A stretch of 64,000 nucleotides of DNA from Parachryseolinea silvisoli (GTDB lineage Bacteria; Bacteroidota; Bacteroidia; Cytophagales; Cyclobacteriaceae): the NCBI RefSeq assembly GCF_021190955.1, contig NZ_JAIOAO010000003.1, forward strand, positions 434,001 to 498,000. Direction: 5' to 3'. Both the position numbers and the translations under genes were made by a program. Below, one piece after another: positions 39,252-59,678 of this stretch. Position 1 is the first letter of the stretch. Every line of letters begins with the position of its first letter. Under the pieces are notes generated by a model. It was not told where the DNA came from. It saw only the letters and a list, made by a program, of their open reading frames with translations, and made no database searches.

Positions 39252-42200
39252 ATGAAGCACGCCATACCACACAAAATATTTTTAGAAGAAAAGGTACAAT
39301 CGCTCAGATTTGCTTTTTGCGTGTTATTAATCCTTGTGGGAGGATCTGCGTTCGCTCAAATTGACTGTAGCAAGAACGCGAATTGCGGGGATCCTTACTG
39401 CGCACCTGTTGCCAATGATGGAAAGGAACTCGGGTGCGAATGTTTCGACACCGTCGATAATGACGGCGATGGTAAAACGGATCAGGGCGATCCGAACTGC
39501 GCGACCTATTACGGGTTAACTTTCGTAGGCGAGGGCTCGGATTGCAGTATAACACCTCCTGGTGCAAGTACTCCCTTTGACCTGGTTGGACCTCCCATTG
39601 TGTCCGGTCAGAATACTGCCGACACGCAATCAAAAGTAGCGGCAGCCGACGTGGATGGAAACGGAATGCCTGATATTTTGATCACCTCCAAATGGAATGC
39701 AGAAGTACGCCTTGTTGCGTCGACTGCGCAAACTGGTGTGGCCGCGCTGGGTGGCGGTAGCTTTGCACCGGGAGATATCATCGCCGACTTTCGACTTTCC
39801 GGCGCTGGTATTTCCAGTCGGTTTGATAACATCGGTTGTGGTAAAACCGCCAACCTGGTATTTGAGTATGAAGTATTGACGGCGGACATTGATGGCGATG
39901 GTCGTTCGGAAGTTTTTGCCGTTGTCAGCAATCGCGCGGGAAGTCCCAAAAGTCCACCGACATGTTTTTTCCTCGTGGGACTAAAGCTGCAGGGCTACGG
40001 AGCGCAAGGCATGACTCTTATCCCGGGCTATCCTGTGTATTTAGGTACGAATCGTCCGGGTATCTTCGGCATTGCCGACATGGATGGAGATGATAAGGCC
40101 GAGATCTATCTGCGTGACCGGATCTTCGCGGCTGAAAACGGAAAATTGCTTGCCAGTGAAGGTGGTAAGGACATGACCAACACATCGCTGTGGGATGTTG
40201 ATGTAACGGCTGCGCCCGTAGCCGTAGATATTAAGTCGGCAGGGGCTGATGGCAATGTAATGGAGCTGATCGTTGGCCCCAGAATATACAAAGTCCCGTC
40301 ACTTACGAGCCGCAATCCCGTCAGCCCCGCCGCGCTGACATTGTGGCGCGACATGAATTCACTCAGCTTCGACATCAACAAAGACGGCGCGCCTGACAAG
40401 TATTATGTCAAGTTGATGAACGATCCCGTAGAGTATGGGATAGATAGCCACAGTAGTACGAGTATAGCCGATATCGATAAGGATGGATATATGGATGTGG
40501 TGGTAACGGGTGCTTTGAATTCGTCGCTGGGTAGAACAACCGTCTTTTATTGGAACGTGCAGAAAAATACGGTGAGCGGGTTTATAACACTGAGCGCTGC
40601 AGACATGGGCATTGCGCCCGGAACGGAGCCTGCCGGTAAATGTCCATCGGGCCTTAGCTATACGAACTATCAAAGCGGCTGGATCTGGGGAACAGGTCGC
40701 GTAAACATCGGCGACGCCAATGGCGATGGCAAGTTGGATTTTTCATTCATCGCCGGAAGTCATCTATACTGTGTTACCACAGATGCGCCCGGAACGAATA
40801 TCGTTCCTTTGTGGTCAAATCCGCGCACGATTAACGACTCACGCTCCGGCGTCCTGACGGTGACTCTTTACGATTTCGACAACAACGGTAAACCTGAAAT
40901 GATATACCGCGATTCGCAGGAAGTGGTTGTGATCGATGGCGCGACCGGCGCTACAAAATACTGGTCATCGATCTGCCAGTCGCATACCTATACAGAAGGC
41001 CCTATCATTGCTGATGTGAATGGAGACGGTGCAACGGATATATGCGTTGCGTGTAATCGGAGTAATTCCTTTGATATCTGCGACGACATTCAGCAGCAGG
41101 CCTTGGGAGAAGTGCGTCTTTACTTTTCCAAAGGCAACGAATGGTTGCCTACAAGAAAAGTCTGGAATCAGCCCGGGTATCATGTCGTCAATATCAACGA
41201 CGACTTAACGCTGCCGTTTCCGCAGCTCGATCCGGGTATGGTGTTTGGCAATGCTCCCTGTGCCAACGGGCTTCCGGGACCTCAAACACCCCTGAACGTC
41301 TTTTTGAATCAGATACCGTTTCTAAGCGCCGAGGGCTGCCCCGTGTTTCCCGCGCCCGACCTGGCCTTTACCGGCGACGTGCCCAACCCCCTGTGCAGTG
41401 TTAATCCGACGCTGCCGGGTTGTGATTCCGATGGAGATGGCGTATACGATCCGGCCGTGGTCGTAATTCCCCCCATCTGCGGTAACCTGGCCATTCAGGT
41501 TTATTGCAATATCATCAATTCGGGAGACCTGCCGATCTCGGATGTTGTTCCGATCAGCTTCTTCAACGGCGATCCGACAACCAATCCCGCCGCGCAGCTC
41601 CTGAGTAGCACCACGGTCACCATTTCGAATTTACAGGTCAATCAGACATTCCGCACACCGACCGTCACGTTCAACGGTCCGGGTACAGTGTTCGATCTGT
41701 ACATCGTCATGTATAATAACGGCGCCGTGTTACCGGTTGTCCTGACCGGTGGTTCTGCGAAAGAATGCAGGATCGAAAACAACATGTACAAAGTGACGGT
41801 GACACCGAGTCCGTTTTCTGCCGGGATACAAAAGATCCGCGACAACCTCAAGTGCGTGGCCGCCGATCCGAATGTTGGTGAGCTACGCGCGCGGCTCTAC
41901 AAGTCAGCCACTGCGGGCACCAATGAAATTGTCGACTATAGCGACTACACCTTCCAGTGGTACTACGGGTTAAATACTTCGAATGCCGTGCCGGTCGCGC
42001 TGGGCGGCAACAACTATACGATATCGGGCTTGCCCGAAGGCGATTATTCCTTTGTGGCCACCAATGTGTCGAAGGGTTGTACAACTACTTTAGTGAGCGC
42101 ACGTGTTGATCTGGGTATCACGCTGCCGGCTGTAACCATTAACGTGTTGTCGGATCAAACCACCTGTGCACCTCCCAATGGTGTGCTGGAAGCTGTCGTT

Positions 42201-45200
42201 GCCGGTGGAAACACAGGCTTTAGTTTTGAATGGTACAGCAACGCGGCGCCACTAGGTGTCTCGACTGCTACTGCCACAAACCTGGCCGGTAACAATTACA
42301 CGGTGGTAGTGACGCGAAATGGTTGTACAACAACAGCATCCGAAGTAGTGGACGACCTGGCCTTCGAACCCGATGTGACCGCGACGTCTACGCCTGTCGT
42401 GAATTGCGCAAACCTCGCAAGCGGGTCGGTCACTGCACAGGCACTCTTGACAGGCGTTCCTCAAAATGCTGCTGGTTTTACGTTCAATTGGTATTTTCAT
42501 ACTATAGCCGATGGCTCCCGGGGAAGTATCCTTCCGGCAGCGAACGGAACGGGACCCACGCGAACCGGTTTGGCCGCCGGATTCTATGAGGTTGAGGCTA
42601 TTACGAATGCGACACAATGTAAATCGGCTCCTTTTGTAATCGAGGTTAAAAACGAAACTGTTCTGCCGTCGGTTGAGATTACACAGCTGGCGCCTCAAAC
42701 TTCGTGCGATCCAACAGCACCCAATGGAAGATTACAAGCGGTAGCGCTCATCGGTGGCGTTCCCCAAAGCGCTTCCGACTTCACGTTCCAATGGTTTGTG
42801 GGCCAAAATACACTCCCTCAGAACCTGCACACGGACGTTTCAGGAACGAACGGAAGTATCGCGGATAGTGTCAAAGGCGGAGGTCAATCGTACACGGTCA
42901 GGATCACCTCGGCTTTTCAATGTACCGCCATGGCAGATTCCGTAATTCAGGAGGTCATTAACATACCCGTCGTCACGCTGACCCCTACGCCCAATGGTAT
43001 ATGCGATGAGGTGCTGGCAGGCAAGGCGTTCTCAGGAGCGGTTTCTGCGTCTGTCACATTTGGCGGTAACCTCGTGAACGATTTCACGCAATATAGCTTT
43101 ACATGGTATACCGGTTCGTCGGCCATCGGCGCGCCGAGACCCGAGACCGGAAATTCTTTAGCCGCGCTGGACAGCGGGTTCTATACCGTGGTGGTGAGTC
43201 GGACAGATCTGAAATGTACCGCCGCGCCGGAGACGGGTCTCGTGGAAGACGAACGTATCCTTCCGACGATCACGGCAAATCCGGTGCCGTCCACAAACTG
43301 TACCACAGCACCGAATGGATCGATGGTTGTGACGAACGTAACTTCGGGCACCACCTCGGGCACGGGTTCTCCTTTTGTATATGCCTGGTTTGATGGTGTC
43401 GACGCTACAACGCTGATACCGGGAGAAACGGGCACGAGTTTAGGCAGCATACAAGGCGGTGTTTCGGTGCTCCGCACCGTTCGCGTCACCAATACGAACG
43501 ACGGCTGCAGAAGTACCAACACACAACTCATTTCCGACAACAGGCTTTTACCAATTTTAGCATTAGAGGCCGATCCAAATACGATCTGTGATCCGGATCT
43601 CACATCTCCTCGCCGTGAATTCAATGGAGAGGTAAGAGCAACGATTACCAATGCGGGCCAACCTCAGTTTGTCGATCCTACCTTTGTCTTCGCCTGGACC
43701 AACACCACGGCCGGATCAGCCATAGCCGACACCGACGCCACGATTTCACTCCTCAACAATGGCAGCTATACGGGCGTTGTCACACACCAGCCTACCGGTT
43801 GTGTTTCTGCGCCGGCAAACATCGACGTGATCCCCCAGAAGGTACCCCTTGTGATCGATGCCGTTGCCAATCCATCAACCAACTGCCCGCCGGTAGCCGG
43901 TAACGGTAACGTGGTGATCAACAGCGTGACGGCGGGTGCTATATCGGGCATTGGAGCGCCATTCAAATACCAATGGCACGATGGATCGAATCTCAGTAGC
44001 CCTATTGCGGGTGCAGTGGGGTCTTCTATTCTCAATCAACAGGGTGGTGTTGGCGTATTCCGCACGGTATTGGTCACCAATCAATTGGACGGTTGCCAGA
44101 TGACGGATACGAAAGAGATCGGAGATGCCCGCGTGTTGCCCGTACTGCAGCTGTTGGCGACGCCAAACTCCATTTGTGACCCGGCGCTTGCCGGTAAGCC
44201 ATTCAACGGCGCGGTAGCGGCTACTATCACCAACCTGGCGGATATTGGCGTCCCGCAGACATTCACCTATGTATGGACGGACCAGGAGACCGGTACAATT
44301 ATCGCAGGTGCGACGGGATCCAACCTGATCGAACGTGACAGCAGTTTTTATACCGCGGTTGTTACGCACGTTCCCACCGGCTGTAAATCGCCGGCGGTGA
44401 TAGCGCAGGTTACGCCTGCACAGATACTACCAGTGATCGGCGCAAGTGCCGTGGCTTCTACGAACTGCGATCCTGCAAAAGCCAATGGTTTGGTGCAGGT
44501 CGACGATGTCGATGGAAACTCATCGCCGTTCGCAGGGTATACTTTCGCATGGCGCGGTGGTCTGACGCAAACAGGTCAGCTCATTGCGAATAGCGCTGTT
44601 AGTCCTGATACGCTACAGGGCGCCATGGGTAAATTTTACAACGTCCTGGTGACCAACACCAACGACGGGTGCAAAAATACTTTTGCAGTAGAATTGCCGG
44701 ACGCCCCGGTCAAACCCGTACTTACGTTGTCGGCAAATCCGAATACCATTTGCGACCCCGGAATTGCCGGCGTATCGGAGAATGGCAGCGTACAACAACT
44801 TTCTCTCTCGTATAGCGGAACGTATGCGGGGGCGCAAACCCTGGTTTATAAATGGTTTAACGGTGAATACACCGGGGCGTCGCTTCCGCCGCATACGCCG
44901 GCGCAGACAGCCGTCGATAACATTGGCGCTTTGTCCTTTGGATTCTATTCCGCTACTGTAACAATCGATGAGATCGGCTGTACTTCTGACATCGTTTCGA
45001 TCGAGGTAAAAGATAATTTCTTTACGCCACCGGTCAATATCACTCCGGTCAACCAAACCTCGTGTGATGATCTGAATCCTAACGGAATGCTTACGGCAAC
45101 GGTCGATGAGACTACCATCGGCGGATCGGCAACGGAGAACTCGTCATCGTTGTACGACATCAACTGGTTTAATCGGGACAATCCCATCGTGACGCCGGGA

Positions 45201-48200
45201 ACTGCCGTCACAACGACTACCGCGATCAACGGGCAGATCAACCGTCTGGAGGGTAACCTGTTCTACACGGTGGAGGTGGTTCGGTTGTTAACCGGATGTA
45301 TCAACACGGAGACGGTTTTTCTGCCGGAGATCATTACTTACCCTGTTGTCGCTGCGGCTGTAAGCGCCGACGTGACACGATGTGATTTTCCTAACGGCGA
45401 AGCGATCGCTGACGTCGGTGGTATGCAAAGCGGCTACACATTCTACTGGTTGAATGAGAAAGGGTTGAGCCAAACCACCGTGGCGGCGGACGTGATCGAC
45501 CAGGCGGATGCCACCCAGGTGGATGATGGTCAATATGTCGACCTGATCCCAGGTACCTACACCGTTGTTGCGAAAGACAATTCGACAACCTGTATTTCCC
45601 AGCCTGTAAGCAGAGTGGTGGCTGATAATACCAATAAAACATCGATCGCCATTTCGATCGATGTGAGGCCGGCACATTGCGCCATCGGGGGGGGAGAGAT
45701 GACAGCCACACTGACCGGCGGCGACGGGCCTGCTTTTGACTACGCGTGGTTCAGGGGTGGTCCATTGAACGACAGCATCAACTTTTTCAACAATCCTCCC
45801 ATCTTTAATCCGGCCACAGCCTTTGATCAAACGTTGGGGGGCGGTGTGTCTGATCAGATCACAGGACTTAATTCAGATCTTTACACGTTGGTGATTTCGG
45901 ATAAAGGCAACGGATGCAGTAACTTAAAAACGATCTTCCTGCCATTCTCGAATGCCCATGTCGTTACGCCGGTCGTGACCCCGTCTACGATCTGCCCGTA
46001 CGATATCGGCAATGGTGCCGTTGAAGCAACAGTTACTAACCTGGATGTTGGTAAAACGATCGATAATTATATCTACCGATTCTACAAAGGAGAAAACCCG
46101 CTGGCGGCAAATCAGATCGGACCCAGTGTCGGCCCTGCGCCGGGCAATCCGAATCCCATTACCTATGCCTCGCTCGCGCCCGGCATGTACACCGTCGAAG
46201 TAAGACAAGGCTTTGCGCCGAACTGCCCGGTGTACGAAGTGGTCGAAGTTAAATCGCAGGCACTTGCGCCTGTCATTAATCTGAACGGCGCTTTGTCCGC
46301 TAATACTTCTTGCGATACCAATGTTGCTGACGGTTCTGCGCAGATTGCCATCAACCGGAATCCCGCGGATGTGACCACGGGCTTTACCTATTCGCTGGAT
46401 GTACTGCCTGCACCTGTAGGGTGGGGTGGCGCTGTGGTAACGGGGCCTTATGCTGTCCCGGATCCGGCCGCCGGTGCTCCTGAAATAGTAACCGTCAACG
46501 GCTTGCGACCGGATAATGAAGTGCCGGAATACACCGTCCGTGTAACGTCATCCAACGGCTGTGAGGCAGAGCGATCGATATCTATTCCGAATCAACCGGC
46601 CGTGGCTGAACTGGTCGACGGCGATGTAGTCAGCCAGAATGCCCTGTTCTGTGAGACATCGCTTGAAACCAACGCGCAGATAGAGGTACGATCGCTTGCG
46701 ATCATCGATGGCCCGGCGGATGATCTGGGGGACTACCGGTTTGACTGGTATACCGATCCGGCGCTTACAGTCGCTTCGCGCGTATTGAGTGCAAATGGAG
46801 ACAATACAGCCGCGAAAGGAGGAGAGATACTCTCGAACGTCGGAGCGCCATTGCCTGCTGCAAAGATAACCGCAGGCTCTTATTATGTGGTGGCCAGCAA
46901 AGTCAATGCCGGTACAACGGGTGGTGTAGGGTGTTTTAGCGCTCCGTTCCGCGTGGATATTCTCGACAAAACTGTCAGGCCGGCTCTTACAATAACGCCC
47001 ACTTCAAATACAGCATGTGATACCAATTTTGAAGGTGCGGTGAAAGTAACCGTAACCTCGCCCGGCTCTGTAAATCCGCTTCCGGGTGTGGCGTATACGT
47101 ACGACTGGGTGGTTGCGGCCACGGCCATAACGCCACCGGCGACGTCGGATGGCGACGGTGTGGGCGTGGATGACAATTTCACAGGGTTGAATGATGGCGG
47201 GTATACGCTCGAATTGAGGAACAATGCCAGTGGATGTACCACGACCGGTTCGACCACCGTTACACCGCTGTTCGTTCCGATCATCATCGCGAAGGCTACC
47301 GCCGCGCCCCAGGTCTTGTGTATTGCCGACGGCAGCGTAACGGTGACACAGGTCGATGTAGGCGCCGCGAACTTTGTCAGAGGGGTGGATGCGGAATTCT
47401 TCACCAACTTCTCGTACTCCTGGTATAAGGACAGTCCGCTGCCGGCGACGGCTTTCTTAACCGACGATGCGTCGGCCAGGATCCAGGTGCCGCAATTAGT
47501 TGCCGGGACGAATGCAGGCGAGTATTCAACCATGGGCGCCGGTATATACTATGTGCAGGCAAAACGAATTGCCGGCGCGCCGGGATCCGGATGTGAGTCT
47601 GCGCCGCTGCGTGTAGATGTAGGCGATCAGCGCAGAAATCCGAATGCAGTCCTGTCACCGTCAAACGACACGTCTTGTGAGACCGTTGGCGGCTTTGAAG
47701 GCGCCATTCAGGTTACTGTGATCGATGCGGGTTCAGGCCCGTTGCCGCTCAACTATACCTTTGACTGGACGACCACGGAACCGTCTGTGCCTGCAGATGG
47801 CGCGGTATATTCCGATACGGAGTCTTTCACGGGGTTAAAGGATGGTGACTACTCCGTCCGCATGACCAACAATACCAGCGGTTGTTTTTCCAATTTCGCG
47901 ACCCAGATCCAGCGCTCATCGGTTCCGATCATCATCGCCTCTGCCGATGTTACGAATCAAATTATCTGCAATCCCGACGGAAGCGTGCGGGTAACGCGTA
48001 TCGATGTCGGTTCATCGGATAGCTATGTACCGGCAGATGCGGCCTTCGGAGATTTTGTGTTCTCATGGACAAAAGCGAATGCCAATAGCGCAGCATTGGA
48101 AGACGATATGGGAGATCCGATTACCGGTGGTGCTTTGCTCCCCGGAACCAACGCCGGCGAATACTCCCAGCTGCTGGCGAATAGTTATTACGTTACGGCG

Positions 48201-51200
48201 AAACGTGCGGCCGGGGGCCCTGGATCGGGTTGTATCTCTGCGCCCTTACGGAAAGATATCATTGACCTGAGCTTTGATCCGGTTGCCCGACTGACTCCCC
48301 TGACAAACACGTCGTGTGATCCGGTGTTCTTTGAAGGTGCCATTACCGTTGACGTGGATGATCCGGGGGCTATGCCAACGCCTTCACCTGTGGCGACCTA
48401 CACCTATCGTCGTGTTTCGGGCCTCAACCCGGTGCCGGTGGTCAATGCCGGACAAGATGGTGCCGCGGATAATTTTGCCGGACTCCGCGACGATACCTAT
48501 GTCGTTCGTGTAACCAATGAGGTCAGCGGCTGCTTTACGGATGTATCCACGATTATTACGCGATCACTGATCCCCGTAACCACGGTGGAGGCACTGGTTA
48601 CCGACCAGCTTGTGTGCTTGAATGACGGAAGGATTGTCGTAACGGAAGTGGCCGTCGGAACGGACAACACGCGCCCCTTTACTGAGTTTGATTTCAGCTG
48701 GTACAAAGATTCGCCGACAGCTGGAAACAGAATTGCCTCGGCGAGCGGTGTTAATCGTTTCGATCTGAATACGACGACGATGCCAGCCATTAAAGCCGGC
48801 ACCTACTATGTAAAAGCCAAACGCATTTTGGGCAGCCCTGGTTTTGGTTGTGAATCGGCGCCATTGCGCAGGGAAATCCTGGATAAAAGCGTAGCGCCGG
48901 ACGTGTCCTTCGCTTTCACACCGGCATCCAACTGTGCTGGCGCGTTACCCAATGGTCAGCTGATTGCCACGGCTATCGAAAGAGATGGAAGCCTTGACGG
49001 GGATAAGGATGGTGTGACCGATGTTTACGCCTTCACCTGGACATTGAACGGCGGAGGCCTTGACCCGGCAACCACGGAAAACTATATAAATCCCACAAGC
49101 ACGCTCGATCGTGCACGGCAAGGAATATATTCGGTGCGCGTCGACAATGCCGCTACAGGGTGCCTCTTTGAAAGAGGAATGGAATTAAAGCTTGACCTGT
49201 CGATGAGCCTTCCCAATATTGTGGATATCGATGTCGTCGATCCGGTGAATTGTTTCCCTAGCGGAACTGCGCAGGTGGTTAAAATTACTATCGGCGGCAC
49301 CACAACCATAACCGATGTCATACAACTGGATGCAGATTTCGACTACAGCTGGTTTAAAGGAACGTATCCCGGTACGCCGCTTGCCGATGCTGGAAATGTT
49401 CCTTATCAGCAAGCGCTGTTGCCAGACCAACTACCCGATAGATATTTTGTGACGGTCCGGGATTTGACGACCAATTGTGAATCGTCGCCGGTTGAAGCGG
49501 TGATCGACTCCGCAGACATCGTGTATCCAGACGTCGATATTACGCAGACGTTACCTCAGGTCAAGTGCGAGCCTTCTTTGGATGGCTCGGCCCGATTGGT
49601 GGCTACGGTAGACAACGGACAAACCAGTGCAAACGCGAATTATAGGTTTGAATGGTACCGGTCATTGGATGGGATGCCTCCGGTTCTTTTTGCGCCGCCG
49701 GCTAATTCTACCATCTCAAATCTGAAAGCGGATAACTATTCGGTGACAGTATTAAATCTCGCAACGAACTGTAGCAGTACAGCGATGTTCATCGTTCCCG
49801 ATGCATCGCCGCGGTTCCTGCCGCAGCTTTCGCTCTCAACCAACGCGCGGACCCGGTGCGATATTACCGATGGGTCGCTATTCGTCAGCGGTGTGCCATT
49901 CCCTGTTGATCTTTTGAACCCGCTCAATAATTACCCGTTCCCATACAGTTACCAGGCGGATCTGTATGCAGGAGCTCCTCCTGCGGACATTGACAATCCG
50001 GATCTTGGAGCCATGGCGAACGATCCGCAGTTCCCGACGTTCACGTCCAACTTCTTGCGTTCAGGATTAGCAGAAGGTGAGTATACGGTGCGCCTGACGG
50101 ATCTCAATACCGGCTGTGTGACGGTCGATTCCACCGATATTCAGGATGACAGAACACCGCCGACCATCGCCATTGTTCAGGACAACCCACTCACGAATTG
50201 TGATCCGCTCCGTGCTAACGGACAGCTCACGGCTACTGCCGATGGTAGTCGGGTGGGGGGATACTCTTTTGCCTGGCATCAGGGTGATGAGGCCATGGGA
50301 CCGGTGCTGACAAATTTCAATACACTTATTGGAGAGACCATCGGGGCGTATACAGTACGCGTCACCAACAATACCACTTTCTGCTCTGCAGATTCTACCG
50401 GTATGATAACCGATGGTACAGTGAAGCCACCCGCACCGGATCCGTCGTTGGTTCAGGGGCGTTCAAACTGTATTACGCCGAACGGCTGGGTAACGGCGGA
50501 TGTTGATGGTGTAACCCTCGGCTATTCGTTCGATTGGTATGTCGATGATGTGCATGACTTTAAGGGTGTCGACTACATCGGTCTTGATATTCGCGAGTAT
50601 TCAGTAACCGCCACCGATGATGTGACGGGATGTGTTTCGCAACCGGCATTTATTACTGTTCCGGATTGGCGAAAGACGCCGATCGTGAACCTGACCAGCA
50701 CACCGTCATACTGCCTGACACCGACGGGAAGCGTGTTGCTCGGACTCGTGAACGGCGACGAAGTGACCCTGGCTGACGTTACGTGGTTCAACGAGGAGAA
50801 CGGTTTACAAGTCGGGAGCGGTCCTGCTACGTATGAACTGTTCACAGGCCTTTACATCGCTCAATTTGTGAGCTCGGAAGGATGTGAAGGGGAGTCACGC
50901 GTGGAGGTGGGCACCGAAATCCTTTCCTACAACCTTGTATCCGTTAACGCGGACAGTCGAAACGACTTCTGGACGATTGATTGTATTCAGAATTTTCCGT
51001 CGAACAATGTAAAAGTATTCAACCGTTCCGGAGTAAAAGTTTACGAAGCGGATGGTTATAATAATGCCGACATAGTGTTTAGAGGCGTCGGTGAAAGAGG
51101 ACTTTATACACTTGGAAACGAGTTGCCGGATGGCACGTACTTCTACATTATAGACAAACGCGATGGTTCGAAGCCGGTATATGGGTACCTTGAATTAGTA

Positions 51201-51206
51201 CACTGA
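39252..51206 (+). CDS. Giant SprB-like T9SS type B adhesin with about 30 tandem repeats
   Basis: A 3,984-residue secreted protein in a single open frame. A signal peptide (to about residue 36) is followed by a Cys-rich segment (DCSKNANCGDPYCAP). FG-GAP/VCBS calcium-loop repeats lie at about residues 130-600 (DVDGNGMPD, DIDGDGRSE, DMDGDDKAE, DINKDGAPD, DANGDGKLD, DVNGDGATD), then DSDGDGVYD near 726 and a CARDB-like domain (about 740-850). From about residue 865 to 3,890 there are some 30 repeats of 80-115 residues. Each opens with Cys-(D/x)P...NGxLxAxV, then YxFxWYxG, GxYxVxVTN and a second Cys, like SprB repeats. The last 90 residues form a CHU_C-like sorting domain. In Flavobacterium, SprB is a mobile gliding adhesin secreted by T9SS; the directly following PorP/SprF gene fits this model. 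Confidence 0.93.
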   Translation: MKHAIPHKIFLEEKVQSLRFAFCVLLILVGGSAFAQIDCSKNANCGDPYCAPVANDGKELGCECFDTVDNDGDGKTDQGDPNCATYYGLTFVGEGSDCSITPPGASTPFDLVGPPIVSGQNTADTQSKVAAADVDGNGMPDILITSKWNAEVRLVASTAQTGVAALGGGSFAPGDIIADFRLSGAGISSRFDNIGCGKTANLVFEYEVLTADIDGDGRSEVFAVVSNRAGSPKSPPTCFFLVGLKLQGYGAQGMTLIPGYPVYLGTNRPGIFGIADMDGDDKAEIYLRDRIFAAENGKLLASEGGKDMTNTSLWDVDVTAAPVAVDIKSAGADGNVMELIVGPRIYKVPSLTSRNPVSPAALTLWRDMNSLSFDINKDGAPDKYYVKLMNDPVEYGIDSHSSTSIADIDKDGYMDVVVTGALNSSLGRTTVFYWNVQKNTVSGFITLSAADMGIAPGTEPAGKCPSGLSYTNYQSGWIWGTGRVNIGDANGDGKLDFSFIAGSHLYCVTTDAPGTNIVPLWSNPRTINDSRSGVLTVTLYDFDNNGKPEMIYRDSQEVVVIDGATGATKYWSSICQSHTYTEGPIIADVNGDGATDICVACNRSNSFDICDDIQQQALGEVRLYFSKGNEWLPTRKVWNQPGYHVVNINDDLTLPFPQLDPGMVFGNAPCANGLPGPQTPLNVFLNQIPFLSAEGCPVFPAPDLAFTGDVPNPLCSVNPTLPGCDSDGDGVYDPAVVVIPPICGNLAIQVYCNIINSGDLPISDVVPISFFNGDPTTNPAAQLLSSTTVTISNLQVNQTFRTPTVTFNGPGTVFDLYIVMYNNGAVLPVVLTGGSAKECRIENNMYKVTVTPSPFSAGIQKIRDNLKCVAADPNVGELRARLYKSATAGTNEIVDYSDYTFQWYYGLNTSNAVPVALGGNNYTISGLPEGDYSFVATNVSKGCTTTLVSARVDLGITLPAVTINVLSDQTTCAPPNGVLEAVVAGGNTGFSFEWYSNAAPLGVSTATATNLAGNNYTVVVTRNGCTTTASEVVDDLAFEPDVTATSTPVVNCANLASGSVTAQALLTGVPQNAAGFTFNWYFHTIADGSRGSILPAANGTGPTRTGLAAGFYEVEAITNATQCKSAPFVIEVKNETVLPSVEITQLAPQTSCDPTAPNGRLQAVALIGGVPQSASDFTFQWFVGQNTLPQNLHTDVSGTNGSIADSVKGGGQSYTVRITSAFQCTAMADSVIQEVINIPVVTLTPTPNGICDEVLAGKAFSGAVSASVTFGGNLVNDFTQYSFTWYTGSSAIGAPRPETGNSLAALDSGFYTVVVSRTDLKCTAAPETGLVEDERILPTITANPVPSTNCTTAPNGSMVVTNVTSGTTSGTGSPFVYAWFDGVDATTLIPGETGTSLGSIQGGVSVLRTVRVTNTNDGCRSTNTQLISDNRLLPILALEADPNTICDPDLTSPRREFNGEVRATITNAGQPQFVDPTFVFAWTNTTAGSAIADTDATISLLNNGSYTGVVTHQPTGCVSAPANIDVIPQKVPLVIDAVANPSTNCPPVAGNGNVVINSVTAGAISGIGAPFKYQWHDGSNLSSPIAGAVGSSILNQQGGVGVFRTVLVTNQLDGCQMTDTKEIGDARVLPVLQLLATPNSICDPALAGKPFNGAVAATITNLADIGVPQTFTYVWTDQETGTIIAGATGSNLIERDSSFYTAVVTHVPTGCKSPAVIAQVTPAQILPVIGASAVASTNCDPAKANGLVQVDDVDGNSSPFAGYTFAWRGGLTQTGQLIANSAVSPDTLQGAMGKFYNVLVTNTNDGCKNTFAVELPDAPVKPVLTLSANPNTICDPGIAGVSENGSVQQLSLSYSGTYAGAQTLVYKWFNGEYTGASLPPHTPAQTAVDNIGALSFGFYSATVTIDEIGCTSDIVSIEVKDNFFTPPVNITPVNQTSCDDLNPNGMLTATVDETTIGGSATENSSSLYDINWFNRDNPIVTPGTAVTTTTAINGQINRLEGNLFYTVEVVRLLTGCINTETVFLPEIITYPVVAAAVSADVTRCDFPNGEAIADVGGMQSGYTFYWLNEKGLSQTTVAADVIDQADATQVDDGQYVDLIPGTYTVVAKDNSTTCISQPVSRVVADNTNKTSIAISIDVRPAHCAIGGGEMTATLTGGDGPAFDYAWFRGGPLNDSINFFNNPPIFNPATAFDQTLGGGVSDQITGLNSDLYTLVISDKGNGCSNLKTIFLPFSNAHVVTPVVTPSTICPYDIGNGAVEATVTNLDVGKTIDNYIYRFYKGENPLAANQIGPSVGPAPGNPNPITYASLAPGMYTVEVRQGFAPNCPVYEVVEVKSQALAPVINLNGALSANTSCDTNVADGSAQIAINRNPADVTTGFTYSLDVLPAPVGWGGAVVTGPYAVPDPAAGAPEIVTVNGLRPDNEVPEYTVRVTSSNGCEAERSISIPNQPAVAELVDGDVVSQNALFCETSLETNAQIEVRSLAIIDGPADDLGDYRFDWYTDPALTVASRVLSANGDNTAAKGGEILSNVGAPLPAAKITAGSYYVVASKVNAGTTGGVGCFSAPFRVDILDKTVRPALTITPTSNTACDTNFEGAVKVTVTSPGSVNPLPGVAYTYDWVVAATAITPPATSDGDGVGVDDNFTGLNDGGYTLELRNNASGCTTTGSTTVTPLFVPIIIAKATAAPQVLCIADGSVTVTQVDVGAANFVRGVDAEFFTNFSYSWYKDSPLPATAFLTDDASARIQVPQLVAGTNAGEYSTMGAGIYYVQAKRIAGAPGSGCESAPLRVDVGDQRRNPNAVLSPSNDTSCETVGGFEGAIQVTVIDAGSGPLPLNYTFDWTTTEPSVPADGAVYSDTESFTGLKDGDYSVRMTNNTSGCFSNFATQIQRSSVPIIIASADVTNQIICNPDGSVRVTRIDVGSSDSYVPADAAFGDFVFSWTKANANSAALEDDMGDPITGGALLPGTNAGEYSQLLANSYYVTAKRAAGGPGSGCISAPLRKDIIDLSFDPVARLTPLTNTSCDPVFFEGAITVDVDDPGAMPTPSPVATYTYRRVSGLNPVPVVNAGQDGAADNFAGLRDDTYVVRVTNEVSGCFTDVSTIITRSLIPVTTVEALVTDQLVCLNDGRIVVTEVAVGTDNTRPFTEFDFSWYKDSPTAGNRIASASGVNRFDLNTTTMPAIKAGTYYVKAKRILGSPGFGCESAPLRREILDKSVAPDVSFAFTPASNCAGALPNGQLIATAIERDGSLDGDKDGVTDVYAFTWTLNGGGLDPATTENYINPTSTLDRARQGIYSVRVDNAATGCLFERGMELKLDLSMSLPNIVDIDVVDPVNCFPSGTAQVVKITIGGTTTITDVIQLDADFDYSWFKGTYPGTPLADAGNVPYQQALLPDQLPDRYFVTVRDLTTNCESSPVEAVIDSADIVYPDVDITQTLPQVKCEPSLDGSARLVATVDNGQTSANANYRFEWYRSLDGMPPVLFAPPANSTISNLKADNYSVTVLNLATNCSSTAMFIVPDASPRFLPQLSLSTNARTRCDITDGSLFVSGVPFPVDLLNPLNNYPFPYSYQADLYAGAPPADIDNPDLGAMANDPQFPTFTSNFLRSGLAEGEYTVRLTDLNTGCVTVDSTDIQDDRTPPTIAIVQDNPLTNCDPLRANGQLTATADGSRVGGYSFAWHQGDEAMGPVLTNFNTLIGETIGAYTVRVTNNTTFCSADSTGMITDGTVKPPAPDPSLVQGRSNCITPNGWVTADVDGVTLGYSFDWYVDDVHDFKGVDYIGLDIREYSVTATDDVTGCVSQPAFITVPDWRKTPIVNLTSTPSYCLTPTGSVLLGLVNGDEVTLADVTWFNEENGLQVGSGPATYELFTGLYIAQFVSSEGCEGESRVEVGTEILSYNLVSVNADSRNDFWTIDCIQNFPSNNVKVFNRSGVKVYEADGYNNADIVFRGVGERGLYTLGNELPDGTYFYIIDKRDGSKPVYGYLELVH
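41850..50920 (+). repeat. Coding array of about 30 SprB-like Ig repeats
   Basis: About 30 repeat units of roughly 250-350 bases were counted by the opening Cys motif. Examples are TTCAPPNG, TSCDPTAPNG, TICDPDL, TNCPPVAGNG, TSCDTN, QIICNPDG and SNCITPNG. In two blocks the units alternate between two kinds: at about 42996-45015 TICDP...NG units alternate with TNC...NG units, and at about 47008-48890 TSCD..FEGA units alternate with Q-x-x-C-x-x-DG units. Higher-order periods are about 585 and 650 bases. One 17-base word, GTTCCGATCATCATCGC, recurs exactly at 47274 and 47932. This indicates growth by duplication of two-unit blocks. Confidence 0.85.
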
Positions 51207-52135
51207 TGAAAAAGATCACAGCCATAATCATAGGTGGTTTGATGTCGCTGATGGCGTCGGCACAGCAACGTCCTATTAATTCACTTTACATGTTTGATCC
51301 ATTGGTGGTCAATCCTGCGTACACCGGTACGCAGGTGCAGCTGAGTGCAACGGCCATTTATCGAAACCAATGGGTGAACTTTCCCGGGGCGCCGAAGACA
51401 TTTACATTCAGCGCCAGCTCCGGCTTTAAACAAAACCGGGTGGGGGTAGGTATTCTGGCCGGTAGTGACCAGATTGGAATACACACGGAAAATACCTTGT
51501 ATCTTCTATACTCCTATAAGTTGCCATTTTCGAAATTCAATTCAAAGTCGTATTTGTCTTTTGGGTTGCAGGGTGGATTCAACGAGCTCAAATCGGATTT
51601 TGGGAAGCTCAATCCGAGAGATGAGGCAGATCCATACTACGGAGTTGTAGATCGGAACATGACCTGGAATTTTGGTGGCGGTTTGTTTTTAAAGCACAAT
51701 TCGTTCTATGCAGGATTATCAGTTCCGTACATCATGAACAATAAAGTGATCAATGCCGAGGTGTTCTCAAGCTCCGCGCGCCAGTATCGTTACTATTATC
51801 TCACCGCCGGGATCACGCGAAAACTCTCAACTAATGTCAAAGTAATACCCTCGACGCTGATCCGCTTCCAGGAAAAGGCGCCTTTGAGCTTTGATCTCAA
51901 CCTGATTACGGTGTTTTACAATGTTGTCGGATTGGGTGTATCGTATCGTCTGGATGATTCCGTTGTGGGCTTATTTGAATTACAGCTCAATGAGAACTTT
52001 CACGTAGGGTATGCCAACGATTTTACGATGTCTGATCTGAGGCGCTATTCCAATAGCTCACACGAGATCATGATAAACTATCGCATCAGGATCGATAAGT
52101 GGCACCGGGGAATAGAGTGTCCTTCCTACTATTGA
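51206..52135 (+). CDS. PorP/SprF-family type IX secretion membrane protein
   Basis: A 309-residue outer-membrane protein of the PorP/SprF family. It has a signal peptide ending MASAQQ, then the family start RPINSLYMFDPLVVNPAYTG (YMFDP...NPAYTG is the hallmark), GIGILAGSDQIG-like and beta-barrel strands, ending RIRIDKWHRGIECPSYY. In Flavobacterium johnsoniae SprF is needed to export SprB, and each type B substrate tends to have its own PorP/SprF paralogue. Its start codon shares one base with the stop of the giant adhesin gene, so translational coupling is likely and the two products are probably partners. Confidence 0.95.
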   Translation: MKKITAIIIGGLMSLMASAQQRPINSLYMFDPLVVNPAYTGTQVQLSATAIYRNQWVNFPGAPKTFTFSASSGFKQNRVGVGILAGSDQIGIHTENTLYLLYSYKLPFSKFNSKSYLSFGLQGGFNELKSDFGKLNPRDEADPYYGVVDRNMTWNFGGGLFLKHNSFYAGLSVPYIMNNKVINAEVFSSSARQYRYYYLTAGITRKLSTNVKVIPSTLIRFQEKAPLSFDLNLITVFYNVVGLGVSYRLDDSVVGLFELQLNENFHVGYANDFTMSDLRRYSNSSHEIMINYRIRIDKWHRGIECPSYY

Positions 52136-56290: not shown

Positions 56291-56320
56291 AAGAGGGCGT
56301 CAGAGGAGGCGCCCTCTTTT
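56291..56320. terminator. Bidirectional rho-independent terminator
   Basis: A 9-bp perfect inverted repeat (AAGAGGGCG at 56291-56299 and CGCCCTCTT at 56310-56318) has a 10-base loop, a T-run after it on the plus strand and A residues at the foot. It sits 16 bases past the VWA stop and 78 bases before the end of the converging Crp/Fnr gene, so it may serve both. Confidence 0.85.
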
Positions 56321-56397: not shown

Positions 56398-57120
56398 TTA
56401 CATTTTTCTTGGGTTCAGTCCCATCAGGTTCGCTTCTTTTATTACTCCCTTACGGTCGATGATGCGGATCATCTTGTCTGTTTTTTCAATGAGTCCGGCC
56501 CGTTTGAATTCCTGCAGTAAACGCACCAGCGTTTCTTTTGCGGTGCCTACCATGTTGGCAAGATCCGTACGGGAAAGATTGATGTCACTGGGTATGCCGG
56601 GCTGGACCGAGGATTTAAATTTTTCATCCAATATCAGCAGGTTAAACGCGAGCCGCTCCCGGACCGACTTGGTGGCCAGGTTGGTAATACTATTAATGAA
56701 TAAACTGAACTCGTGACCGAGCGCCTTTAACAGCGTATTGGATAGCTCCGTCGAGTTGCGCAGCACTTTCAGAAAATTATCTTTCGGGATAAAGGTGATC
56801 TGGGAGTTCTCGATGGTGGCAGCTGAGTCCGGGTAGAACTCTTCTCCCAGTAAGGCATGATAACCCAGCAACTCTCCTTCACTGCACAAATAGAATATTT
56901 GTTCCCCTCCCTTGGCTGTCGCCTTATATTTCTTTACCCGCCCCGAAAGCACGTAAAATATTCCCGTGGGAATACCCCCCTCCCGGAAAATGATCTCCCC
57001 TTTACTATACAAGTGCGTAACCCCGGATCCCATGAGGGATTCATGCTCTTCGGCGGTCAGGCCCTCAAAAAGCTGATCGGTTTTAAGGCGAAAGTTCCCC
57101 GATAAAAAGTTCTTGAGCAT
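56398..57120 (-). CDS. Crp/Fnr-family transcriptional regulator
   Basis: A 240-residue regulator. The N-terminal cyclic-nucleotide-binding-like beta-roll includes LYSKGEIIFREGGIPTGIFYVLSGRVK in part, FYLCSEGELLGYHALL and FIPKDNFLKVL. A long dimer helix follows, then a winged HTH in which the recognition helix VGTAKETLVRLLQEFKRAG keeps the E...R pair that in CRP and FNR contacts the TGA half-site. Only one cysteine lies in the sensor domain, so an FNR-type 4Fe-4S cluster is not expected; the effector is unknown. The gene is divergent from the small-protein/sigma operon, and two FNR-like palindromes lie in between, suggesting that it regulates that operon, itself, or both. Confidence 0.95.
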   Translation of the reverse strand: MLKNFLSGNFRLKTDQLFEGLTAEEHESLMGSGVTHLYSKGEIIFREGGIPTGIFYVLSGRVKKYKATAKGGEQIFYLCSEGELLGYHALLGEEFYPDSAATIENSQITFIPKDNFLKVLRNSTELSNTLLKALGHEFSLFINSITNLATKSVRERLAFNLLILDEKFKSSVQPGIPSDINLSRTDLANMVGTAKETLVRLLQEFKRAGLIEKTDKMIRIIDRKGVIKEANLMGLNPRKM

Positions 57121-57170
57121 GGCGATGTGTTAAATACTGGCAAATTTCATTCAATACATCAACACTTTGA

Positions 57171-57206
57171 TTGACTAAAGTCAATGGATACGTTGATCAT
57201 TTTCAA
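57171..57206 (+). promoter_or_regulatory. Two tandem FNR-like palindromes, probable Crp/Fnr binding sites
   Basis: Box 1, TTGAC-TAAA-GTCAA (57171-57184), is a perfect 5-4-5 inverted repeat like the FNR box TTGAT-N4-ATCAA. Box 2, TTGAT-CATT-TTCAA (57193-57206), is a weaker copy. Their centres are 22 bases apart, two DNA turns. With a start site near 57241, inferred from the -7 element, the centres fall near -64 and -42, close to the classical class I and class II activator positions. The adjoining regulator has the matching recognition residues. Confidence 0.65.
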
Positions 57207-57228
57207 TATAAATTAAAAAATTGGCGTC

Positions 57229-57236
57229 TAACTTTG
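57229..57236 (+). promoter_or_regulatory. Bacteroidota -7 promoter element TAACTTTG
   Basis: An exact match to TAnnTTTG lies 37 bases before the start codon at 57274. A clear TTTG -33 element at the usual spacing is missing; box 2 of the FNR-like pair occupies that place. This is what one expects of an activator-dependent promoter. Confidence 0.55.
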
Positions 57237-57273
57237 CCCCGGGAGATTCAAAACAGTATGAAATATCTTTTCA

Positions 57274-57537
57274 ATGGAAGCCTTTTGTAGTGAGATAGTA
57301 GCGGAGATCAGAGAGGCCCAAAGTGAGGCAGAATTAATCAAAGTGATTGGCCACTCCATATCGCAGCTTCGAAAGGACCGAAAATCCTATAACGAATCGG
57401 GCTACATCATGAACATGATCGTCTCTCTCCGGTCTACGAAACCTGGGGAGGTTACTACTGAAACGCTTGACAATGTTAAACTGGCCATTGCCATTTTCAG
57501 GCAATTCCAGAAAGAAAGCCGCGAACGCATTTGCTGA
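57274..57537 (+). CDS. Small helical protein, paralogue of the next gene, function unknown
   Basis: An 87-residue acidic, mostly helical protein with no signal peptide, so cytoplasmic. It is related to the 82-residue product of the next gene. Shared features in order are F near the start, I..A.SE.E, V...SI..LR (residues 24-33), G(Y/H)I......S(L/M) around residue 43-52, and N..(L/I)AI.(I/L)FR..Q at the C-terminus. No known domain was recognised. It is the first gene behind the two FNR-like boxes and is 95 bases upstream of its paralogue, in a group that ends with a sigma factor. A role in sigma-factor control or stress response is a guess from position. Confidence 0.72.
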   Translation: MEAFCSEIVAEIREAQSEAELIKVIGHSISQLRKDRKSYNESGYIMNMIVSLRSTKPGEVTTETLDNVKLAIAIFRQFQKESRERIC

Positions 57538-57631
57538 TCAACGCACAGGTTGACTTTAAGTCACTTTCAAGGCCTGGTAAAGCGCACAGACGACTGTTCT
57601 ACAAATCCGTCCACCACCTGGAACTCAATCA

Positions 57632-57880
57632 ATGACACATTTCAAACAGACAGTACTGTGGCAGATCCAGTCTGCTTCGGATGAACAAGAGGTCGAACAC
57701 GTAGTTGATCTTTCGATCCAGAAACTAAGATCCCAAAATGTGAATGGCCATATCATCCAACGGTTCATTCTGTCCATGGATAAAGTTCTCCGCGACGCAA
57801 AGTTGCAAGATTCCGCTGAAAAAAAAGGACAGAACATGAACATCGCCATCGGCCTGTTCCGGAAACTTCAAAGACCATGA
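57632..57880 (+). CDS. Small helical protein, paralogue of the preceding gene, function unknown
   Basis: An 82-residue cytoplasmic, helical protein. Over the first 32 residues about ten positions are identical to the protein at 57274, and the C-terminal NIAIGLFRKLQ matches LAIAIFRQFQ there. The middle (VLRDAKLQDSAEKKGQN) is charged and differs. The pair therefore came from an old duplication. No enzyme or DNA-binding motif is seen. It lies 58 bases before the sigma-factor gene. Conservation of both copies beside each other suggests that both are used, possibly as subunits of a heteromer. Confidence 0.72.
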   Translation: MTHFKQTVLWQIQSASDEQEVEHVVDLSIQKLRSQNVNGHIIQRFILSMDKVLRDAKLQDSAEKKGQNMNIAIGLFRKLQRP

Positions 57881-57937
57881 CGGACTGCAGTATTTCATTC
57901 CATCAGGATAGTATTCATTTAAACCCGGAAAGCATCC

Positions 57938-58800
57938 ATGAGATCACTTAAGATCGCCAAACAGATTACCAACCGCGAAAGCCAATCGCTGGATAAATAT
58001 TTACAGGAGATCGGAAAAGTAGGTCTTATTTCAGCAGACGAGGAGGTGATACTGACGCAGCGCATCCGGGAGGGCGACCAGGCTGCGCTCGATAAGATGG
58101 TGAAAGCCAATCTCCGGTTTGTGGTCTCGGTGGCCAAGCAATACCAGAGCAGCAGTTTTTCGTTGGGAGACTTGATCAATGAAGGAAACGTCGGGCTAAT
58201 GAAAGCCGCCATCCGTTTCGATGAGAAGCGCGGGTTCAAATTCATTTCCTATGCGGTATGGTGGATCCGCCAGTCTATTCTGCAGGCACTTTCCGAACAA
58301 TCCCGTGTCATTCGGATTCCATTAAACCGGGGAGCTTCACTGAATAAGCTCAACAAGACATTTGCCACGCTGGAACAGAAGTTTCAACGCGACCCGTCTG
58401 CCGAAGAACTGGCTGAGGTCATGGAGGTCGCCCCGGAAGAAGTCAGAGAACAGCTCAAATAGGAACGCGCCACGTTTCCATCAACGCCCCCTTCATACAG
58501 GGAGAAGAGAACGGACTACTCGATGTATTGGAGGACGAATCCGGAACAGCACCGGATTCAACGTTGATCGCTACGTCTTTATGCCAGGATGTCCAGCGTT
58601 CTCTCTCTACGCTGACGGCAAGGGAATCCGATATCATATCCCTCTACTACGGACTTAATGGTCTGCCTGCCATGACCCTGGAAGACATAGGGTTTAGGTT
58701 CAATCTCACCCGCGAACGCGTCAGGCAAATAAAGGAAAAGGGTATCCGCAGGCTCAAGCAATCGTCCAGAAGTCACGTACTAAGAGATTATCTCGGATAA
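57938..58800 (+). pseudogene. RpoD/SigA-type primary-like sigma factor with one-base frameshift
   Basis: The first frame (57938-58462) encodes sigma regions 1.2 to 3: [20 protein letters not shown] in part, [44 protein letters not shown] (region 2.4) and the -35/-10 linker to EEVREQLK, followed by TAG. The next frame, open from the same place to 58800, continues with TRHVSINAPFIQGEENGLL, LTARESDIISLYYGLNG and the region 4.2 helix FNLTRERVRQIKEKGIRRL. Adding one base near 58457-58460 (an AAA run) joins the two into 287 residues, the normal length for Bacteroidota RpoD. Several residues differ from typical housekeeping RpoD (for example SSSFSLGDL and [10 protein letters not shown]), so this is probably a second copy. 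Sequencing error and true mutation cannot be told apart here. Confidence 0.85.
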
Positions 58801-58907: not shown

Positions 58908-59678
58908 TTACTCCTCGTGCGGCGTACCGCCTCCGAATGTCACCGTCACCACGGCTTTATGCCCACCCGGCGCGCCGTCTTCCCCACGAGTCTGCTCGAA
59001 ATAGAGATAACTCGCCACGGCTGTCAGTGCACGCACCGCCTCGCGGTCGGCGGCTGGCGTCAGCCCCTGTACAACCCCCATATCCCCCAGCACGCCCTCG
59101 GCATCAATGGTAACCGAAATCCGAACCACTCCTTCGACATCTTCCTGCTCCGGATGCTGGTTGACTTCCCGCGCTAATATCTCCTGAAACCTGGCGCCGT
59201 TCAGCTCACAGATAGCCAACTCGGGCGTCTCTTCCATGACGGGCATACCCGTTGTCGACTCGACCATCGTTATTGGTTCGACATCCACACTGGGTATATT
59301 AATAAGCGAAAGCGTTGGCACAGGCAACGTATCCACCGTCGGTTGTTCCTCGACGGTGAGGGCTGGTGGCATGGCTATTTCTCCGGTAACTTCCTGCACA
59401 TCCTGTCGCGACGTACACGCTGTCGCCGCCAAAGTAGTCGCCACCGACGCAGCCGCCACCCGGCGCAGAAAACGGGCACTCAGCTGGTCGCGATTAAAAA
59501 TGCCGCACACCCGTTTCCCCCTGGCTTGCCGCAGGGCAAGCTGTAAGGCCTCTGCCGACTGGCAGCGAAAATCTGTAATGGCATGGGCACACCTGGCACA
59601 GTAGAATCCTCCCTCGGCGGGAGTCTCCAGCTTTTCCGAACACGGAAACGCCAGGGTAACGTTAGTGATGGCTGACAT
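58908..59678 (-). CDS. Zinc-ribbon/membrane/TonB C-terminal domain protein
   Basis: A 256-residue protein. The N-terminal ~65 residues match a module common in Bacteroidota: CS..(C13)...GGFYCARC (C27, C30)...ITDF...GKRVCGIF (C58)...QLSARF, probably a metal-binding ribbon in the cytoplasm. One membrane segment follows (about 71-88, VAAASVATTLAATAC), then a Pro/Thr/Val-rich linker and a C-terminal TonB_C-like domain (VEGVVRISVTIDAEGVLGD in part, then AVRALTAVASY). Full TonB activity is doubtful because the linker is short. The protein may instead sense or transmit a signal across the inner membrane. The sigma-factor gene and this gene converge. Confidence 0.8.
   Translation of the reverse strand: MSAITNVTLAFPCSEKLETPAEGGFYCARCAHAITDFRCQSAEALQLALRQARGKRVCGIFNRDQLSARFLRRVAAASVATTLAATACTSRQDVQEVTGEIAMPPALTVEEQPTVDTLPVPTLSLINIPSVDVEPITMVESTTGMPVMEETPELAICELNGARFQEILAREVNQHPEQEDVEGVVRISVTIDAEGVLGDMGVVQGLTPAADREAVRALTAVASYLYFEQTRGEDGAPGGHKAVVTVTFGGGTPHEE

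Follow-up and report, generated by a model that had tools for sequence, protein, structure and literature searches.

A narrowly distributed cassette of a Crp/Fnr-family regulator, small helical proteins, and an RpoD-type sigma factor in Cytophagales

In Parachryseolinea silvisoli, a gene for a Crp/Fnr-family regulator is divergent from a putative operon coding for two proteins of 82 to 87 residues and an RpoD-type sigma factor. Do these genes form a regulatory unit, and if so, what might the regulator and the small proteins do for the sigma factor? The locus lies in a 64,000-nucleotide stretch of contig NZ_JAIOAO010000003.1 (positions 434,001 to 498,000), the whole of which is referred to here as the window; positions are counted from its first nucleotide (Table 1). 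The genes and their divergent layout agree with a preliminary description of this arrangement, and the regulator has both a cNMP_binding domain (PF00027, 7.8e-19) and an HTH_Crp_2 domain (PF13545, 1.3e-14), each above its cut-off. The description had also taken the small proteins, s1 and s2, to be related; BLASTP of the pair is blank and a profile comparison is clear (hhalign 97.4%, E 1.3e-11, 82 columns), by which measure s1 and s2 are paralogues. The sigma factor gene that it named is present but is not an open frame, with a TAG codon at 58460-58462 after 174 amino acids, in which Pfam recognizes region 1.2, region 2, and a portion of region 3; the remainder is in another frame, and regions 1.2, 2, 3, and 4 do not fall within a single open frame.

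Table 1. Positions of the cassette genes and control elements in the window
Feature	Position	Strand	Remark
Crp/Fnr-family regulator (P0001)	56398..57120	-	240 aa; Pfam domains, orthologues
Weak -7-like block for crp, GAAATTTG in crp direction	57141..57148	-	36-bp offset from box 1
Third half-site ATCAA	57158..57162		22 bp upstream of matching half of box 1
Box 1, TTGACTAAAGTCAA, FNR-like palindrome	57171..57184	+	Predicted centre -63.5
Box 2, TTGATCATTTTCAA, FNR-like	57193..57206	+	Predicted centre -41.5 (class II position)
-7-like promoter element, TAACTTTG	57229..57236	+	Predicted transcription start about 57241
Small protein 1 (s1)	57274..57537	+	87 aa; four predicted helices
s1-s2 gap, 94 bp	57538..57631	+	AONS-family gene sits here in Chryseolinea loci
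Small protein 2 (s2)	57632..57880	+	82 aa; four predicted helices
RpoD-type sigma, N-terminal part	57938..58462	+	174 aa; in-frame TAG at end; cassette sigma clade
RpoD-type sigma, C-terminal part (region 4)	58459..58800 (about)	+	Another frame; Pfam region 4

The cassette is real and is not confined to the window. Crp, small gene or genes, and an RpoD-type sigma gene follow one another in this order at five further loci, spread over four Cytophagales genomes, and the sigma frame is open at each: two loci are in Chryseolinea lacunae (contig19 and contig1), and one each in Chryseolinea serpens, O. koreensis, and a metagenome-assembled genome (MAG) that is titled 'Chitinophaga' and that genome taxonomy puts in the genus of the window. 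The Crp proteins of these loci are 76-81% identical to the window Crp. Divergent from crp, C. lacunae contig19 and C. serpens have s1, a gene for an AONS-family (BioF/serine palmitoyltransferase-like) enzyme, s2, and sigma; C. lacunae contig1 has an AONS remnant (tblastn E 6e-12), s2, and sigma; O. koreensis has s2 and sigma; the MAG has s1 and sigma; and the window has s1, s2, and sigma. Either s1 or s2 is absent from three of the six loci, and in all six, one small gene is directly 5' of the sigma gene; the AONS gene is absent from the window, O. koreensis, and MAG cassettes, which retain a small gene and sigma. The s1-s2 gap of the window contains a faint AONS trace, with a score that 10 of 1000 equally long random stretches also reach, and the gap is possibly a vestige of the AONS gene, on weak grounds. 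P. silvisoli also has an AONS-family gene away from the cassette (C7:1370484-1371731), with a product 81% identical to that of the C. lacunae cassette gene.

The preliminary description asked whether this synteny recurs across Bacteroidota; it does recur, but in the genomes sampled it is confined to two genera, both of the same family. Single-sequence searches identified s1 in 2 of 148 family genomes, its own included; of 390 order genomes, two matched s2, these being its own and one with a match at E 0.005 (G241). With a small-protein profile, and at most 14 candidates per genome scored, there are matches in 6 of 390 family genomes, five of them strong; the sixth (G120) is at E 4.1e-4 and lies within a 554-aa frame. 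At the same limit of 14 candidates, the five strong genomes have small proteins at 11 places, all of them in or beside cassettes, the opposite of a family that mostly occurs away from sigma or Crp neighbors. A phylum-wide search matched the source genome alone among 395 genomes, a sample evidently without the other four. Among 10 genomes of the two genera, five have both a cassette-type Crp (≥76%) and the small proteins, and five have neither. From these searches, the small-protein family is narrow and patchy in the genomes sampled, and we found no description of the cassette in the open-access literature.

A sister genome without the cassette Crp (G508; best Crp 44%) is 86.6% identical to the window up to position 56300, and divergence begins just to the left of the cassette. 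The protein encoded to the right of the cassette (58908-59678) has one weak match only among nine related genomes, and this flank also looks accessory. Elsewhere in the window, a gene for a 3984-residue repeat protein followed by a 309-residue gene (39252-52135) presumably resembles the SprB-like adhesin and PorP/SprF pair of type IX secretion.

The tandem FNR-like boxes predicted between crp and the operon were located as two TGA-N6-TCA boxes (Table 1). In all six loci, the boxes are 14 bp long and of TTGA-N6-TCAA type, with 22 bp from the start of box 1 to the start of box 2, and a TAnnTT element (Bacteroidota -7-like) starts 36 bp after box 2; box 2 deviates from the type in the MAG, where it begins ATGA, and in O. 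koreensis, where it ends TCAT. When the six control regions are aligned (two stretches being shorter at the operon side), only one of the 26 invariant columns falls outside the two boxes, the third half-site, the -7 element, and a crp-facing block; the TCA of the third half-site is invariant in all six regions, and the crp-side block has two invariant columns. Read in reverse from box 1, this -7-like block begins TA in three loci and GA in three, and the offset of the TA type is 36 bp in two loci and 37 bp in one; the operon and crp promoters may thus share the same sites, read both ways. When each of the six homologous regions was dinucleotide-shuffled 20,000 times, the two-box plus -7 geometry never reappeared; the pattern was, however, itself derived from these regions.

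An excerpt of a study of Flavobacterium psychrophilum promoters (PMC9723704) gives the sigma-A box as TAnnTTTG at -12 to -5, and with the cassette -7 element placed in the same way, the predicted centres are -41.5 for box 2 and -63.5 for box 1. In an excerpt of PMC5934665, a site for Fnr with its centre at -42 counts as class II. By geometry, in six of six loci, box 2 would be at a class II activator position, with a second dimer two turns upstream. The placement of the boxes fits the earlier proposal that the regulator switches on the operon, and the argument for activation is one of promoter anatomy. The layout is like that of FNR/CRP class II (and class I) promoters in having TTGA-N6-TCAA-type sites with the near site predicted over the -35 region, and is unlike them in having a Bacteroidota -7 element instead of a -10 element.

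A scan of five genomes with a pattern of the double box and -7 element returned 11 matches, and the same pattern read backwards as a control returned none. Six of the matches are the promoters used to build the pattern, and for 10 of the 11, the crp or sigma gene of a cassette is no more than about 1.3 kb away. Two further matches (C. lacunae contig19 and C. serpens) precede a methyltransferase gene that converges on crp, one precedes a degenerate s1 copy in C. serpens, one precedes a gene that is porin-like by eye in O. koreensis, and the eleventh is elsewhere in the MAG genome. The extra s1/s2 copy of C. serpens (L087 3349-3835) is degenerate, inverted, and facing the cassette, and has its own double box but no crp or sigma gene. 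The makeup described earlier, with crp, small genes, and sigma, stands, but it overlooked the broken sigma frame of the window and the enzyme partners of the Chryseolinea module, which are AONS and a methyltransferase whose gene has a double box to itself.

What kind of Crp/Fnr protein is this? FNR proper has four cysteines that hold a 4Fe-4S cluster, and in CRP proper an Arg-Ser of the phosphate-binding cassette contacts cAMP. Unlike FNR, the 240-residue cassette Crp has a single cysteine, which is absent from two Chitinophaga Crp homologues, and lacks the FNR oxygen-sensor cysteine set. It scores 73.6 against the FNR model NF008365 (cut-off 228) and, for CRP, 48.4 against NF008732 (cut-off 266), and its presumed cAMP-contact site, picked out by eye without alignment to CRP, reads PDSAA, with no Arg.

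Of eleven Crp loci, we scanned the six more distant ones (43-50% identity) for the module genes, and found no small proteins and no sigma gene in the flanking DNA examined, and a double box in one of the six. Three of them have a methyltransferase gene divergent from crp. In G028, where Crp is 47-48% identical, methyltransferase and then AONS genes are divergent from crp, with no TGA-N6-TCA box between crp and the methyltransferase gene. In Chitinophaga sp. CF118, the methyltransferase gene follows a GcvH-like gene (Pfam GCV_H 7e-15), in front of which is a double box with the cassette's 22-bp spacing and, also at the cassette's offset, TACCTTTG; in C. oryziterrae a single TGA-N6-TCA box with TACCTTTG, also at the same offset, is before the same GcvH-like gene. 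These Chitinophaga loci are like the cassette in their related Crp (47-50%), divergent layout, and box or boxes at the same offset, and unlike it in having no small proteins or RpoD-type sigma gene in the flanking DNA examined. The GcvH-like and methyltransferase operon (L090 5864-6869; L092), with boxes at the class II offset, is a possible conserved Crp target outside the cassette. The Crp loci of Nonlabens and two Flavobacteriaceae have no methyltransferase, AONS, or double box. The methyltransferase genes of both Chryseolinea species carry a double box, and the methyltransferase operon is probably an older Crp target, to which the sigma cassette would be a later addition; the AONS-family enzyme also appears to be among the older targets.

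In a set of 35 sequences, the cassette sigma factors group in a single clade (94/86) that excludes primary-like RpoD and the other paralogues, and the window sigma factor is in this clade and distinct from the primary-like sigma factor of the same genome (L074). The nearest outsider is a sigma factor of G015, and the stretch read around its gene has no crp or small-protein match. The cassette sigma factors share 71-78% identity with the primary-like sigma factor of P. silvisoli, and their presumed regions 2.4 and 4.2 are nearly those of primary RpoD; the presumed -10-reading helix is nearly unchanged, and fixed changes are elsewhere, for example L54M, T55V, and A269G. Because regions 2.4 and 4.2 are so similar, a distinct regulon is not evident, and the sequences fit a group 2 type sigma factor with overlapping specificity. 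They are like group 2 sigma factors (RpoS and the cyanobacterial types) in being non-primary with RpoD-like regions, and unlike them in forming their own clade near the Bacteroidota primary sigma factor and in having a Crp-linked gene; the intact C. lacunae sigma factor does not reach the NCBIfam cut-off for RpoS, for cyanobacterial RpoD, or even for RpoD itself. The P. silvisoli genome has seven matches to the N-terminal part of the sigma factor (E 1e-20 or better), and other matching family genomes have one to five; at least three full-length RpoD-like sigma factors besides the primary-like one are among the loci read. Four more full-length RpoD-type sigma genes of this genome, one of them primary-like, are at C5:1575490, C7:1259747, C7:1289829, and C9:431141 (L072-L075). 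We found no open-access literature on RpoD-like sigma paralogues in this group.

The small proteins are as unfamiliar as first reported, in that profile searches of Pfam, NCBIfam, and PHROGs gave no family match. None of nine members has a Pfam match at a credible E-value (best 0.019), a search that diverged anti-sigma relatives could escape, and NCBIfam has no match to s1 or s2 of the window. Both are modeled as four helices (s2, pLDDT 93, pTM 0.82; s1, pLDDT 88, pTM 0.78); a fold search with the s2 model gave no distinctive match, no relatives of solved structure were found, and neither Pfam nor the fold searches with the s2 model link the small proteins to a sigma-related role. Small sigma-binding proteins such as AsiA of phage T4 and Rsd of E. 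coli are familiar; the cassette proteins resemble these in their link to a sigma-70-type factor, here known from the genes alone, and differ in that no Pfam relation or standout fold match was found. That they probably modulate the sigma factor is a natural guess, with a role alongside AONS as the chief competing one.

The reading that we favor, and consider reasonably probable, is that of a narrowly distributed cassette in which a group-2-type sigma factor and small proteins that modulate it come from an operon activated by Crp. The sequences themselves show the gene content, synteny, boxes, spacing, and co-occurrence; binding, the direction of regulation, an effector, and what the small proteins act on are inferred. 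The Crp/Fnr protein, perhaps responding to an effector, would occupy both TGA-N6-TCA boxes, of which box 2 is at the class II position (-41.5) and box 1 is two helical turns further upstream, and would thereby activate the divergent operon; Crp may also control its own gene through the same sites read backwards. The output would be one small helical protein, or two, plus an additional RpoD-like sigma factor of group 2 type, which would redirect part of the RNA polymerase, and the co-made small proteins would most likely tune it, as an anti-sigma factor, chaperone, or co-activator. In the window, where the frame is broken, the sigma output is probably lost or truncated.

Two other readings concern what Crp does. 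It could serve mainly the methyltransferase operon and the AONS-family enzyme, the small proteins being partners or regulators of AONS and the sigma factor a passenger; this would account for the AONS gene flanked by s1 and s2 in C. lacunae contig19 and C. serpens, the AONS remnant 5' of s2 in C. lacunae contig1, the methyltransferase and AONS genes divergent from the G028 crp, and the boxes at the methyltransferase genes of both Chryseolinea species and before the GcvH-like genes of CF118 and C. oryziterrae. Nonetheless, we think this unlikely, as three cassettes keep a small gene and sigma without AONS, a small gene adjoins sigma in six of six loci, and the box is missing from the G028 interval; moreover, AONS is encoded elsewhere in eight of eight genomes checked (69-81%), yet the small proteins were found only in or beside sigma cassettes. 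Alternatively, Crp could repress the operon. Divergent regulators often do so, crp and box 1 have the third half-site between them, and the sign of control is not readable from sequence; the predicted positions of the boxes, however, are upstream of the core promoter in the usual place for CRP/FNR activation and neither box overlaps the -7 element, and we find repression quite improbable.

A third reading is compatible with the favored one of a Crp-activated sigma cassette and concerns the window alone, where the locus could be a decaying remnant with its sigma gene destroyed by a frameshift and only Crp and the small genes perhaps still working. We put the chances of this at about even. The in-frame TAG and change of frame point to it, as do the open frames of 287-288 aa in the five homologous cassettes. 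The non-synonymous difference of the C-terminal part of the window sigma is 0.144-0.215, versus 0.101-0.235 among intact pairs, and because this part is constrained like its intact relatives, the break would be either very recent or a one-base sequence error. The long genes across the 64 kb look unbroken by eye, which makes poor assembly unlikely and an error less likely than a recent break. The sigma gene is probably decaying in this genome, unless the frameshift is a sequence error.

The promoters also allow a more elaborate version of Crp activation. In the five cassettes with an open sigma frame, the -7 element reads TAnnTTG, with no third T (TAATTTGG, TAAATTGC, TAACTTGC, TAAATTGC, and TATCTTGT), and four of the five match the SM5 motif TAnnTTGY, a minor promoter class of F. 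psychrophilum in an excerpt of PMC9723704. The full TAnnTTTG is present in the window, with its broken sigma gene, in the sigma-less copy of C. serpens, and wherever a double-box promoter points to a methyltransferase gene, as it does in C. lacunae, C. serpens, and Chitinophaga CF118; the porin-like promoter of O. koreensis has TAGTTTCG. The pattern was noticed after the fact in a few related promoters, and it suggests that the sigma factor may feed its own promoter. A two-step switch, with Crp turning on a dedicated sigma factor and a new sigma-binding family, and with the sigma factor preferring the one-base-shorter -7 element and feeding its own promoter, is in our view doubtful.

An alternative sigma factor under Crp control is of a known kind; what is new is the orphan small-protein family and the narrow cassette that carries it. 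The cassette is compact, its promoter grammar can be read, and two of its proteins are orphans; it therefore offers direct access to the function of such a sigma factor, to the signal that a Crp of Bacteroidota conveys, and to the question of whether sigma modulators include a new class represented by the small proteins.
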